From Balneolaceae bacterium (GTDB taxonomy: Bacteria > Bacteroidota > Rhodothermia > Balneolales > Balneolaceae), in assembly GCA_007694095.1 (NCBI GenBank), contig RECI01000136.1, positions 1 to 44,640 of the forward strand: a stretch of DNA of 44,640 nucleotides, in the 5' to 3' direction. The notes under the pieces are model-generated. The model did no database searches and was not told the origin of the DNA. It saw only the letters and a program-made list of their open reading frames with translations. Below are positions 6,572-27,437 of this stretch, piece after piece (within the stretch, counting starts at the first letter, position 1; every line of letters starts with the position of its first letter). The translations under genes were made by a program, and so were the position numbers.

Positions 6572-7906
6572 ATGCCGAGACAAAAAAAAGTTAAGAAGGT
6601 TTTCGTTCTTGACACATCAGTTCTTTTGTATGACTCTGACGCTGTAAAAAACTTCGAAAAACATGATATTGCCATTCCAATAACTGTTTTAGAAGAGATT
6701 GATTCCTTCAAGAAAGGAAATACAGTAACCAATCTGCATGCCCGTGAGTTTATCCGTTTTCTGGATAAGATCACCGATTCTAACCTGATCCAGGAATGGA
6801 TTCCGCTGAATGGCCGAACTCGTGGTAAAATTCGTGTAATCAGTGATGAGGGAAGTGAAAAAGATGCCAATACCGTTTTCGGTTCTGTAAAAAATGATCA
6901 CCGAATCCTCAATTCAGCCATGAAACTGATGGAGGAAGAACCGGAAAAAAAAGTTGTATTGGTCACGAAAGACATCAACCTGCGGCTGAAAGCCCGTGCG
7001 CTGAACCTTGTGGCCGAGGATTATGAAACCATCCGCATCAAGGATATTGATCATCTTTACAAAGGCAAATCGGATGTCCATGTAGAAGACAATAACTACA
7101 TCAATTCCCTTTATAAAGACGGGCATATTAAATATTCCAGTATTTATAAAACCGAACCTGTAAGCAATCATTATTACATTCTGAAAAATCATTCCAGTTC
7201 AGCGCTGGGTTATTACAATCCAAAAACTAAGCATATCGAACTGGTCAAAACGATGAATGCTTATGGCGTAGCACCGCGCAACGCGGAACAGACGTTTGCC
7301 ATGCACGCGCTGATGAACCCCAATGTATTGTTGGCAACAATTACAGGATCGGCAGGTACAGGCAAAACACTCCTTGCCCTGGCGTGCGCTTTGGAACAGC
7401 GGAGCCAATACAGGCAAATCTATCTTGCACGTCCAATTGTTCCGCTGAGCAACCGCGATCTTGGCTATCTCCCCGGTGATGTAAAATCTAAAATTGATCC
7501 CTATATGCAGCCCTTGTGGGATAACCTGAGCATCATAAAAAACCAGTTCAGCGAATCCAGCAAGCAGTACAAAAAAGTGGACGAGCTGGTTCAGACTGAA
7601 AAACTATCAATTGTACCGTTGGCGTATATCCGCGGCCGCAGCCTCAATAATGTTATTTTTATTATTGATGAAGCCCAAAACCTTACTCCGCACGAAATCA
7701 AGACCATTATTACCCGTGCCGGCGAGAACACAAAAATTATTTTTACGGGTGATATCTTTCAGATCGATACACCATATCTCGATGCACAGAGCAACGGTCT
7801 CTCCTACCTTGTTGACCGGATGAACAATAACGATGTGTATGCCCATATCAACCTGGAAAAAGGGGAACGCTCGGAACTGGCGAATCTGGCAAGCAAGTTT
7901 TTGTGA
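6572..7906 (+). CDS. PIN-PhoH fusion ATPase (PhoH family)
   Basis: This 444-residue protein has an N-terminal PIN nuclease domain (KVFVLDTSVLLYDSDAV with its acidic Asp, and VLEEIDSFKKG). A C-terminal PhoH-type P-loop ATPase follows. Walker A is GSAGTGKTLLALA at about residues 259-271 and Walker B is VIFIIDEAQNLTPHE. The same architecture occurs in B. subtilis YlaK and in PhoH2 proteins, which act as RNA helicase/RNase combinations linked to stress and toxin-antitoxin-like roles. The acidic PIN residues appear intact, so nuclease activity is plausible. It is probably monocistronic: a repeat spacer lies upstream and a heptamer tract begins 18 bp after the stop codon. Confidence 0.93.
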   Translation: MPRQKKVKKVFVLDTSVLLYDSDAVKNFEKHDIAIPITVLEEIDSFKKGNTVTNLHAREFIRFLDKITDSNLIQEWIPLNGRTRGKIRVISDEGSEKDANTVFGSVKNDHRILNSAMKLMEEEPEKKVVLVTKDINLRLKARALNLVAEDYETIRIKDIDHLYKGKSDVHVEDNNYINSLYKDGHIKYSSIYKTEPVSNHYYILKNHSSSALGYYNPKTKHIELVKTMNAYGVAPRNAEQTFAMHALMNPNVLLATITGSAGTGKTLLALACALEQRSQYRQIYLARPIVPLSNRDLGYLPGDVKSKIDPYMQPLWDNLSIIKNQFSESSKQYKKVDELVQTEKLSIVPLAYIRGRSLNNVIFIIDEAQNLTPHEIKTIITRAGENTKIIFTGDIFQIDTPYLDAQSNGLSYLVDRMNNNDVYAHINLEKGERSELANLASKFL

Positions 7907-15796: not shown

Positions 15797-17338
15797 TTAT
15801 TTGATCAGTGACCTTATGTAATACGAAGTATTCGCCACCAGAATTACAATCGTTGCGCCTGCAAACGTATAAAGCGGCCAGGCAATAGTCAGTGGTTCGC
15901 CGGGTAAAAATTGTTGCAGAGGGCCTTCCACCATGAAAAGCAGGGCAATCAATCCACTGAAAAAACCGATCATTGCATCGGTTCTATCGGGTTTTTGGAA
16001 AATGCGGCCAAGCAGGAATATTCCAAGTAATCCGCCATAGGTATAGGATGCAATGCCGAGCCCCAGTTCCACAATCGCGGGACGGTCGTCGCCGCTCAGC
16101 TGCAGCCATGTAAACAGGAATGCAGATCCGGTAAGCATCACTCCCCAGCCAATGGTCACCATCCGCGAAACCCAAAGTTCTTTGGCATCATCCCATTTGG
16201 CTTTTGACATGGGTTTGATCAGGTCGTAGGTAGTGGAAGATGCAAGGGCATTTAATGAGGAACTAAGACTGCTCATTGCCGCGGCAAAAAGGGCTGCAAC
16301 AATTAACCCTGCCATCCCTACAGGCATGTGGTCAACAATAAACCGGGCAAAAACTTCATCGGTTGTGGCAAGGCCTATCGATTCGGGGCTGGCTCCGCCG
16401 TAAAAAACGTACAGTATCAAACCAATAAAAAGAAACAAGCCGAACTGCAGGCTTGCCACAATTCCGCTCCAGATCAGTGCCTTTTGGCTCGAACGAAGGT
16501 TGCCCGTTGCAAGCAGCCTTTGCACGATCAGCTGATCTGTGCCATGGGAAGCAATTGAAAATACAGCACCACCAAATAAGGCAACCCAGAATACATAAGG
16601 ATCAGCCAAAAATGCCTGCCAGCTCAAATCACCACCCCAGTTGAACAGCGTAAATTTTCCTTCAGCTCCAAGTAATGTAAATGCTTCACCAATGGAAACC
16701 GGCAGTTTTCCAAACAGCAATACCAAAGCAAAAAGTGCCCCGCCTATATAAACAACCATCTGCACAACATCCATCCAGATAACAGCTTTAATACCTCCCA
16801 GGAAAGTGTAAATAAGGGTTATGACAGAAATCACGGTGATGGCCATCAGGTAGACTTCGGCGTCGCTCCATTCGTCAAAAGTTCCGGCGAAACGGAAAAT
16901 AATTGCCAGTGGAATAGCTGTTGCAAACAGGCGGACACCATCGGCCAGCAGACGGGTAATGATGAACGTTGAACTGGCAGCCTTTCGCATTCCCGGGCCG
17001 AAACGTTGTTCGAGGTATTGATATGCCGTAGTAAGTTCGCCCTGCACATAGGCCGGCAAAAACCAGATCGCTACAATGATACGGCCGATAATGTAGCCGA
17101 ATGTTAATTGCAAAAAGGTGAGATTGCCGCCATAGGCAACCGCTGGTATGCTGATGAATGTGAGAGTACTTGTTTCGGTAGCTACAACCGAAAAGAGAAT
17201 AGCCCACCAGGGCATGGCACGTCCGCCAAGAAAATAGTCGGTTGTGGTTTTTTGTGTACCGGCAGACCATATCCCAAAAACAGCCACCGCAATCAGGTAG
17301 ACGATAATGACAATTGCATCAATTATTGTAAATCCCAT
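15797..17338 (-). CDS. sodium:solute symporter family protein
   Basis: This 513-residue member of the SSS family has about 13-14 hydrophobic segments. Landmarks are GGRAMPWWAILFSVVATETS near residue 38 (the SSS TM2 region), the central GTDQLIVQRLLAT motif and AAALFAAAMSSLSSSLNALA, which carries the small-residue Na2-site helix. The substrate could be a sugar, sialic acid, amino acid or organic acid. The GTDQ-VQR pattern matches the SGLT/NanT-like branch often used by marine Bacteroidota for sugars. No catabolic gene is adjacent, so the substrate is left open. A 140-bp AT-rich promoter region separates it from the GxxExxY unit. Confidence 0.9.
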   Translation of the reverse strand: MGFTIIDAIVIIVYLIAVAVFGIWSAGTQKTTTDYFLGGRAMPWWAILFSVVATETSTLTFISIPAVAYGGNLTFLQLTFGYIIGRIIVAIWFLPAYVQGELTTAYQYLEQRFGPGMRKAASSTFIITRLLADGVRLFATAIPLAIIFRFAGTFDEWSDAEVYLMAITVISVITLIYTFLGGIKAVIWMDVVQMVVYIGGALFALVLLFGKLPVSIGEAFTLLGAEGKFTLFNWGGDLSWQAFLADPYVFWVALFGGAVFSIASHGTDQLIVQRLLATGNLRSSQKALIWSGIVASLQFGLFLFIGLILYVFYGGASPESIGLATTDEVFARFIVDHMPVGMAGLIVAALFAAAMSSLSSSLNALASSTTYDLIKPMSKAKWDDAKELWVSRMVTIGWGVMLTGSAFLFTWLQLSGDDRPAIVELGLGIASYTYGGLLGIFLLGRIFQKPDRTDAMIGFFSGLIALLFMVEGPLQQFLPGEPLTIAWPLYTFAGATIVILVANTSYYIRSLIK

Positions 17339-17483: not shown

Positions 17484-17548
17484 TTGCCACAGATGGCACT
17501 GATTAACACAGAAAATCCCTCTGTGAAAATCTGTGCCATCTGTGGCAA
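17484..17548 (+). repeat. palindromic repeat bounding the GxxExxY gene, left copy
   Basis: This 65-bp repeat has perfect 16-bp inverted ends, TTGCCACAGATGGCAC (17484-17499) and GTGCCATCTGTGGCAA (17533-17548). The interior is AT-rich. Its right half is almost identical to that of the copy at 17967-18029 in the same orientation. Confidence 0.93.
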
Positions 17549-17579
17549 CATACTATTGAATATTTTTTTGAAATACTTC

Positions 17580-17966
17580 ATGTATAATGATGAAAACATC
17601 TATCCCCTTCAGGATAAAACCCGGTTGATTATTGGTCTGGGATTTGAAATTCATAAGACTCTCGGTTTTGGTTTTTTGGAAATTGTTTATAAGGATGCAT
17701 TTGAATATGAATTCAGGCAGCAAGGTATTATTTATGAGAGAGAAAAAAAGTATGAAGTACCTTACAAAAATATCATACTCCCCCACAAATTTTATGCGGA
17801 TTTTGTGGTTTTTGATGATGTGATTCTTGAGATAAAAGCAAAAGATGGAATTGCCCCGGAAGATATGGCCCAAACCCTGAACTACCTGAAATGCTCGGGC
17901 TGCAAAGTTGGCTTAATAATAAATTTTGGACGACTTAAACTGGATATAAAAAGAGTTGTTTTTTAG
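17580..17966 (+). CDS. GxxExxY protein (PD-(D/E)XK nuclease superfamily)
   Basis: This 128-residue protein carries the naming motif in GFGFLEIVYKDAFEYEF (G-x-x-E-x-x-Y) after IIGLGFEIHKTLG. The PD-(D/E)XK-type core is FYADFVVFDDVILEIKAKD, with Asp and a Glu-x-Lys pair at the correct spacing, and it is followed by LNYLKCSGCKVGLIINFG. These residues suggest a nuclease or nuclease-derived fold, but the biological role of the family is unknown. The frame is open further upstream, but that part would translate the palindromic repeat (KICAICGN), so I start at the ATG at 17580. The second repeat copy begins at the first base after the stop codon. The gene is visibly more AT-rich than its neighbours, which suggests acquisition. 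Confidence 0.9.
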   Translation: MYNDENIYPLQDKTRLIIGLGFEIHKTLGFGFLEIVYKDAFEYEFRQQGIIYEREKKYEVPYKNIILPHKFYADFVVFDDVILEIKAKDGIAPEDMAQTLNYLKCSGCKVGLIINFGRLKLDIKRVVF

Positions 17967-18029
17967 TTGCCACAGAGAGCTCAGAAAAACACAGAAAACC
18001 TCTGTGAAAATCTGTGCCATCTGTGGCAA
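17967..18029 (+). repeat. palindromic repeat bounding the GxxExxY gene, right copy
   Basis: This copy begins directly after the TAG stop with TTGCCACAGAGAGCTCAG and ends with GTGCCATCTGTGGCAA (18014-18029), identical to the left copy's right arm. About 35 bp of right-half sequence is shared almost perfectly with 17516-17550. Confidence 0.93.
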
Positions 18030-18033
18030 CATT

Positions 18034-18612
18034 TCACCCCTTCAAAAACTCCAGGAATTTAAACAGCGCTCTTCCACGGTGACTGATTCGGTTTTTGACT
18101 TCAGGGCTCAGTTCGGCAAAGGTTTTTTTATAACCGGCCGGCCGGAAAACCGGGTCATAACCAAATCCATTCTCTCCTTTTGGTTTATGAATGATCTCAC
18201 CTTCACAAATTCCTTCAAATAGATTTTCATTTTCTCCGTCAACAAAAGCGATGACTGTACGAAAGCGGGCTGTCCGTTTTTTTATCCCATCCAGGTCACG
18301 GAGCAGTTTAGCCACGTTCTGTTCATAGGTCGCATCTTTGCCCGCATACCGTGCGGAATATACACCCGGTGCACCGTCCAGTGCATCCACCTCGAGTCCG
18401 GTATCATCGGCCAGTGCCGGCAGGCCGGTGAATTGGTTCCAGTAACGTGCTTTTTTTAGGGCATTGCCTTCCAGGCCGGGTTGGTTTTCCTCAACATCTT
18501 TACCACCAGGAAAATCATGGGTGGATTTCAGTTCAATACCAAATGGCTCCAGTATTTGCCACAACTCTTCAATTTTATGAGGGTTCGCCGAAGCAAGCAG
18601 AATGGCTTCCAT
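18034..18612 (-). CDS. rdgB: XTP/dITP diphosphatase (RdgB/HAM1 family)
   Basis: This 192-residue house-cleaning enzyme hydrolyses ITP, dITP and XTP to monophosphates, keeping non-canonical purines out of DNA and RNA. All family motifs are present: ILLASANPHKIEEL at the N terminus, GLEGNALKKARYW, ALADDTGLEVDALDGAPGVY, NGFGYDPVFRP and the C-terminal KNRISHRGRALFK. Length is normal. Its stop codon is only a few bases from the right palindromic repeat, so insertion of the GxxExxY unit appears to have spared the gene. Confidence 0.96.
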   Translation of the reverse strand: MEAILLASANPHKIEELWQILEPFGIELKSTHDFPGGKDVEENQPGLEGNALKKARYWNQFTGLPALADDTGLEVDALDGAPGVYSARYAGKDATYEQNVAKLLRDLDGIKKRTARFRTVIAFVDGENENLFEGICEGEIIHKPKGENGFGYDPVFRPAGYKKTFAELSPEVKNRISHRGRALFKFLEFLKG

Positions 18613-18658: not shown

Positions 18659-18720
18659 TGCCACAGAAGCACAGATTTACACTGATAATTTGATCTGTAA
18701 TTTTCAGTGTTTCGGTGGCA
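18659..18720. repeat. diverged third copy of the TGCCACAG palindrome
   Basis: The termini TGCCAC (18659) and GTGGCA (to 18720) with internal CAGATTTACACTGAT and TTTTCAGTGT dyads give the same overall architecture as the repeats around the GxxExxY gene. Its sequence has drifted. It sits between the rdgB start and the PfkB stop. Confidence 0.7.
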
Positions 18721-18722
18721 AC

Positions 18723-27286: not shown

Positions 27287-27331
27287 ATACCCATATTACC
27301 AGAGAATTCATAGGTTTTCTCAGGTGATTTT

Positions 27332-27360
27332 TCTGTGCAGATCTGTGCAATCTGTGGCAA
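27332..27360 (+). repeat. solo half-copy of the CTGTGGCAA palindromic repeat
   Basis: This 29-bp segment, ending ATCTGTGCAATCTGTGGCAA, matches the right half of the repeats bounding the GxxExxY gene with three substitutions. The left half is missing. It lies between a terminator and the M50 gene, 9.8 kb from the GxxExxY unit. Confidence 0.75.
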
Positions 27361-27437
27361 TAAACCCTCTACCCACAATTATTCCCGTAAAATCTCTATT
27401 TTAAAAGAGAAATACTGATATAATAATTGTTAGCCGA

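Follow-up and report, generated by a model that had tools for sequence, protein, structure and literature searches.

Short palindromes that are dispersed through intergenic DNA and flank a nuclease gene are known from the REP/RAYT (TnpA-REP) system, in which the class of the repeat matches the clade of the protein and gene-less copies are in the majority. MITEs and their parent insertion sequences have terminal inverted arms at both ends, and their gene-less derivatives are dispersed. Homing endonucleases of the PD-(D/E)XK class also exist (I-Ssp6803I type); they are small proteins, their gene lies inside the recognition sequence, and content turns over at a fixed site. In the IVSs of 23S rRNA, a small ORF encoding an S23 four-helix-bundle protein lies inside inverted repeats, and presence at conserved sites is patchy (PMC4990558).

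We describe here a GxxExxY gene flanked by palindromic repeats in a Balneolaceae bacterium, which shares with these systems the traits just named, its position inside a recognition sequence being a conjecture, and departs from each of them. RAYTs belong to the HUH Y1 transposases and act on single-strand hairpins, whereas GxxExxY proteins are of the PD-(D/E)XK type, their repeats are helically phased box arrays, and one genome harbors several subfamilies with differing arrays. Unlike homing endonucleases, GxxExxY genes come without intron or intein, and their predicted target is a multi-copy array family. Unlike MITEs and insertion sequences, the units have no DDE/DEDD transposase, and no target-site duplication was resolved around them. 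IVSs lie in rRNA helices, where they form RNA stems that RNase III cleaves, and the gene that they carry belongs to PF05635 and not to a nuclease family (PMC4990558), whereas the unit studied here lies in the interval between a symporter gene and rdgB and not in a 23S rRNA helix. The unit works like REP/RAYT and has the layout of an rRNA IVS, but its protein is not that of the former and its location is not that of the latter.

No role is known for GxxExxY proteins, widespread as they are, and their name occurs in only two of the 5.39 million papers that we searched. Within this search, which left preprints and subscription journals outside its scope, we found no link between GxxExxY and repeats, and none to GxxExxY in work on Geobacter multicopy sequences, REP/RAYT, IVSs or homing. 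Our analysis suggests that repeats and nuclease genes together make up a class of mobile units that has drawn little notice. If this is true, the family gains a function, a common class of unannotated palindromes is explained, and four-helix-bundle proteins of the IVS type are placed in a similar frame. Many natural pairs of protein and DNA site would then also be at hand, and these could yield a recognition code for a compact PD-(D/E)XK protein of 125 residues.

Anatomy of the repeat-flanked unit

The window is the whole stretch of DNA analyzed here (44,640 nt, contig RECI01000136.1). The unit lies between an SSS-family symporter gene (15797..17338, minus strand) and rdgB (18034..18612, minus strand), which served as left and right neighbors in the site comparison below. 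Its left palindrome (17484..17548, 65 bp) is an inverted array of CACAGA boxes (TTGCCACAGA..GGCAC..CACAGA) with perfect 16-bp ends and folds far more stably than shuffles (z -11.1). The right palindrome (17967..18029, 63 bp, z -8.2) is of the same family and begins at the first base past the TAG stop codon of the gene (17964-17966). The right halves of both repeats are 89% identical over 47 nt. The two repeats described in the first-pass annotation of this DNA are thereby confirmed. It had also described the gene as precisely bounded by the repeats, and this applies to the 3' side only. The gene (17580..17966, plus strand) encodes 128 amino acids from ATG 17580; ATG 17580 is the likely start, and an alternative, TTG 17484, falls within the left repeat. 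Between the end of the conserved left repeat block, at 17551, and the 5' boundary of the gene there are 28 bp. The gene is AT-rich, as had been noticed, with a GC content of 34.6% compared to 47.8 to 47.9% in its two neighboring genes.

A third, diverged copy of the palindrome, already seen in the first reading, was found at 18660..18721 between rdgB and a sugar-kinase-like gene (z -4.5). What had been taken for a solo half at 27332-27360 is in fact the better-kept half of a whole, strongly diverged copy (27293..27361) that retains 74 to 76% identity over its full length and has lost the hairpin (z -0.7). None of the four palindromes is assigned to a strand. The GTAG/CGTC tetranucleotide found at the foot of REP hairpins was absent from both flanks of the two window repeats beside the gene. 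An isolated minus-strand pair of CRCNRAK boxes was observed at position 6827, away from the unit.

The GxxExxY protein is a PD-(D/E)XK nuclease-like protein

The gene product matched PF13366 (E 4e-34, 118 bits against a curated cut-off of 22) and TIGR04256 (E 6e-37, 127 bits against 35). These were its only Pfam and NCBIfam matches, and an HUH Y1 transposase was absent from them. Its structure model (pLDDT 93) adopts a PD-(D/E)XK fold, in which the E..D..ExK active-site residues of PD-(D/E)XK nucleases are present. The corresponding E34, D74, E84, and K86 (numbering from ATG 17580) were invariant across 28 diverse homologs, in agreement with the earlier claim of an intact core. The nearest structure was that of SSO0001, a Cas4 protein (Z 10.2, with a Foldseek E of 2e-4), while Hjc resolvase and EcoRV matched the model at Z 6 to 7, a range where matches cease to be distinctive. 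A sequence search of the PDB with the GxxExxY protein returned no relative. Among orthologs of the window type, dN was 0.06 to 0.26 with dS mostly saturated, indicating purifying selection; decayed copies nevertheless occur.

The proximity to Cas4 SSO0001 and a patchy distribution (0 to 7 copies per genome) would suit a defense nuclease that attacks foreign DNA and whose arrays are autoregulatory or self-identity sites. However, the window protein had no match in PADLOC, weak Cas4-like and candidate-defense matches were obtained for only one of four GxxExxY proteins, and neither of the two proteins searched against PHROG gave a match. The dispersed gene-less arrays described below would also be left unexplained, and we consider a defense role highly unlikely. 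GxxExxY was found in eight scattered plasmid records, all called non-mobilizable, so that no plasmid vehicle was seen.

GxxExxY genes sit between inverted box arrays in many phyla

GxxExxY loci were collected from relatives of this bacterium, together with 80 loci from other phyla that were identified solely by their protein sequence. With a permissive scoring, a repeat common to the upstream and downstream flanks was detected for 87% of the 71 genes from relatives. For mismatched pairs the figure was 11%, and for 126 other ORFs from the same loci it was 12%. In AT-rich genomes, this first scoring retrieved 76% of the genes, yet also 37% of the control ORFs. Because it was too permissive there, we adopted a strict scoring, shuffles, and a motif test. 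The strict set comprised 154 genes from many species, 73 from relatives and 81 from other phyla. Inverted arms across the gene exceeded the 99% shuffle limit in 70% of the former and 60% of the latter; 30 to 40% of the genes were without detectable arms under this scoring. The pattern extends further than the first-pass annotation had supposed.

The motif test gave a similar picture. At 80% of the 81 loci from other phyla, a pair of boxes was present within 400 bp of the gene. The corresponding figures were 1.5% for shuffles and 5.9% for control windows, and the enrichment over distant non-coding DNA was 6-fold in relatives and 14-fold in other phyla. The first box motif, with spacers of 3 to 5 nt, had been fixed before the loci from other phyla were scored, whereas spacers of 2 to 4 nt were taken up after viewing the window copies; enrichment was observed with both settings. 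The GxxExxY gene therefore sits between inverted box arrays in many phyla, which supports the initial notion that gene and repeats form a compact unit linked to a repeat family of its own, and extends it across phyla. The other suggestion of the first-pass annotation, a nuclease that maintains its repeat family, is a conjecture.

The arms are helically phased arrays of boxes

The arms consist of serial boxes that resemble CRCNRAK. Matched against themselves, they gave peaks at lags of 9 to 10 and 21 to 22, about one and two helical turns, and they were oriented "+" upstream and "-" downstream of the gene. When 16 copies of this palindrome family from the window genome were compared, boxes were nearly invariant, while many spacer positions were unpaired in 6 to 14 of the 16. 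Covariation among these copies equaled that of shuffles, with 80% paired cells in both. Because the boxes are conserved, the spacers unpaired and covariation lacking, we read the array as inverted protein-binding boxes; in this one repeat family, the arrays are best read as putative protein-binding sites, and we rejected an RNA hairpin kept by selection.

The same data bear on an RNA element comparable to the 23S rRNA IVS, whose inverted arms would form an RNA stem around the ORF. An ORF within inverted repeats is indeed the IVS layout (PMC4990558), and single palindromes fold stably. Against this stand the absence of covariation, the frequently unpaired spacers, the occurrence of copies in ordinary intergenic DNA, and the fact that no Rfam family scored above its gathering score for the unit, which together make an RNA element barely credible. 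Some miRNA-like Rfam matches lay far below the gathering scores and were taken as chance hairpin matches. Palindromes of one type were also seen nested in the loops of another, with or without a gene (L217 and L223; L301, L302, L304, and L308).

Arm sequence tracks protein subfamily

We compared protein similarity with arm similarity in pairs of genes from different genomes at non-orthologous loci. The two were correlated within the relatives (rho 0.27), within other phyla (rho 0.41), and between both sets (rho 0.27), each with a P value of 0.0005, the floor of 2000 permutations. No significant correlation was found for paralogs of the same genome, for which only 32 pairs were available (rho 0.13, p 0.29). 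A post hoc table of subfamily by motif was near-diagonal in the relatives. TCTCGCRGA accompanied 9 of 11 ISYxIRG proteins (2 of 62 others), TYGCCACRRA accompanied all 5 window-type proteins (2 of 68 others), and four further subfamily types showed similar pairing, all of this likewise post hoc.

Two of these subfamily-motif pairs were set down as predictions beforehand and tested in 395 genomes of another class. The window motif was strongly confirmed, being present at 18 of 30 window-type genes and at 0 of 30 ISYxIRG genes (p 9e-8), with a background of 1 in 83. Support for the ISYxIRG motif was weak (4 of 30 against 0 of 30, p 0.056; against a background of 2 in 83, p 0.042), and only 1 of 10 proteins with the exact signature had it. 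Many ISYxIRG arms in that class read CCCGCAGATTTCGCAGAT, a near variant of the motif that we recognized by eye and post hoc. Overall, the arm sequence tracks the protein subfamily.

Inverted arms are not restricted to GxxExxY genes. In this genome and its relatives, arms above the 99% shuffle limit were found around 67% of 24 genes for PF05635 four-helix-bundle proteins (L232-L264), a second family with a similar repeat-flanked design. Their arm units are apparently 7 to 8 nt long (GGATGCT, TGAGTAT, AGGTTTG, among others) and seemingly subfamily-specific. Such unrelated genes between inverted arms of iterated units, the nested palindromes and the conservation of sites would fit arrays that are host-made hot spots (terminators, cruciforms, or protein sites) gathering small genes, the nuclease serving some other job. 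This explanation does not, however, predict that arm sequence and protein subfamily go together in different genomes and even in another class, and by inspection the PF05635 arms are of another design, with their 7- to 8-nt units. We regard it as quite unlikely.

Our main reading is instead that GxxExxY proteins would be PD-(D/E)XK nucleases with sequence specificity, and that every one of them would have a particular family of inverted box arrays as its partner. We assign this reading a probability of roughly 60%. The units are most likely mobile nuclease-repeat elements, with cleavage and copying as their presumed mechanism. A GxxExxY protein, probably as a multimer, would bind the boxes on a single face of the DNA duplex and cut inside the array or close to it. 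The gene would then enter array sites, or be exchanged there, either through repair that uses a copy with the gene as template or because the unit moves by transposition together with its arms. Gene-less palindromes would be targets or decayed derivatives, standing to GxxExxY proteins as REPs do to RAYT transposases, although the nuclease is unrelated.

Dispersal of repeats and genes in the genome

The window palindrome family occupies about 25 places in the 4.56-Mb draft genome, about 20 of them outside the window. Most copies stand without a gene, and 16 of the 17 solo copies checked lie in non-coding DNA. The genome encodes seven GxxExxY proteins, and the other six genes are not beside the window palindrome. 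By inspection, each of them adjoins palindromic or inverted repeats, mostly of differing sequence (CCGCAAAGG, CACAGAGG/CGTGCC, GTGATT, GGATT, and CCACGAAG types). The first-pass annotation had asked whether GxxExxY genes elsewhere lie beside this very palindrome; what they share is a design, in which each subfamily has a palindrome of its own.

Copies of the gene within one genome are divergent paralogs and not recent duplicates. A related genome, G018, has 11 matches to the window palindrome while its gene is reduced to a scar at rdgB, and another, G011, has one palindrome copy of the window type while its gene carries GCCACGGA-type repeats. Compared with the window genome (G000), these show that the copy number of the palindrome does not simply follow the presence of the gene. 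At a locus of G011 (L387, contig C45), the right palindrome of the window-type gene is directly followed by the start of that gene once more, as a truncated second copy, as if units duplicate in tandem. At two other loci (L004 and L030), array copies lie directly 3' of apparent tRNA 3' ends.

Descent, turnover, and movement of the units

To follow the window site, we compared the interval between the symporter gene and rdgB among genomes. Seven genomes of the genus, including this one, hold an ortholog, in some cases broken. Another subfamily with another array occupies the site in two genomes (G012 and G019), G018 has a solo palindrome beside the scar of the 3' end of the gene, and others have a solo palindrome, a nested palindrome, or nothing. 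The unit at this site has largely been inherited by descent, with decay and replacement. The mobility that had been proposed for the unit finds its support at other loci. In three genomes of the genus, a GxxExxY unit was also seen at the same place beside valS, a further conserved site (L113, L091, and L093).

One such locus is an intergenic site in Flavobacterium, where we found the gene in either orientation, joined arms, nested palindromes, or remnants. One locus has joined arms only (L303) where another has arm-gene-arm (L200); the window unit, by comparison, consists of a gene between two whole palindromes. The state of the site changed 13 times on the flank tree, compared to a mean of 13.1 with shuffled labels, and orientation changed once on the protein tree. 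Flank and gene identity were uncorrelated (rho 0.06), and the closest pair (G059 and G127) shared 93% identity in the flanks and 75% in the gene, which lies in opposite orientation. The arm sequences are dispersed as well, with 13 and 16 matches in two Flavobacterium genomes, and this likewise argues for movement. At the site itself, the gene, its orientation, and the arms change without regard to the species tree, for which an ancient polymorphism followed by loss, or homologous recombination of the ordinary kind, could also account.

Because fixed sites change their content and the gene is found in either orientation, we tentatively favor a homing-like cut-and-copy into the array, somewhat likelier than transposase-like excision and insertion, which we hold to be the less probable route. 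Complete palindromes rather than single arms flank the window gene and its relatives, which simple homing into the center does not predict, and no insertion boundary could be resolved. More broadly, and with somewhat less than even odds in our estimate, GxxExxY genes and phased inverted arrays may form a separate class of mobile elements in several phyla. The protein alone would recognize, insert into, and re-copy its array family, and environmental palindromes of the CACAGAG, CGCAAAG, and GGATT types would be its products.

A further argument for movement came from a cassette found in three species, in each at a different locus, with no similarity among the flanks (L028, L106, and L108). The dS of its gene was 0.50 to 0.75, compared to 1.65 to 3.5 for rdgB in matched species pairs. 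This divergence is too low for descent, indicating that the cassette moved and was not inherited, and horizontal movement of the gene together with its arms is supported. One cassette at unrelated loci is also what a transposon would produce, in which the arms are minimal transposon ends, GxxExxY is the transposase or part of it, and the gene-less palindromes are MITE-like and moved in trans. The terminal, inverted arms ("+" upstream, "-" downstream), the dispersed gene-less copies, and the palindromes nested inside other palindromes agree with this. On the other hand, neither a target-site duplication nor a clean empty site could be resolved, the flanks of the compared species being too diverged or keeping old arms, and the gene copies of one genome are the divergent paralogs noted above. 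To our knowledge, no PD-(D/E)XK protein transposes alone, TnsA needing TnsB. We consider a transposon fairly unlikely, and nucleases partnered with their arrays remain our preferred reading. Finally, sequence encoding a YGLSEEE-like motif borders the MINEKYKYSALTG cassette on both sides in L106, and in L108 it lies immediately beyond the palindromes; it resembles the C terminus of a DNA methylase and is a possible target or carried piece.
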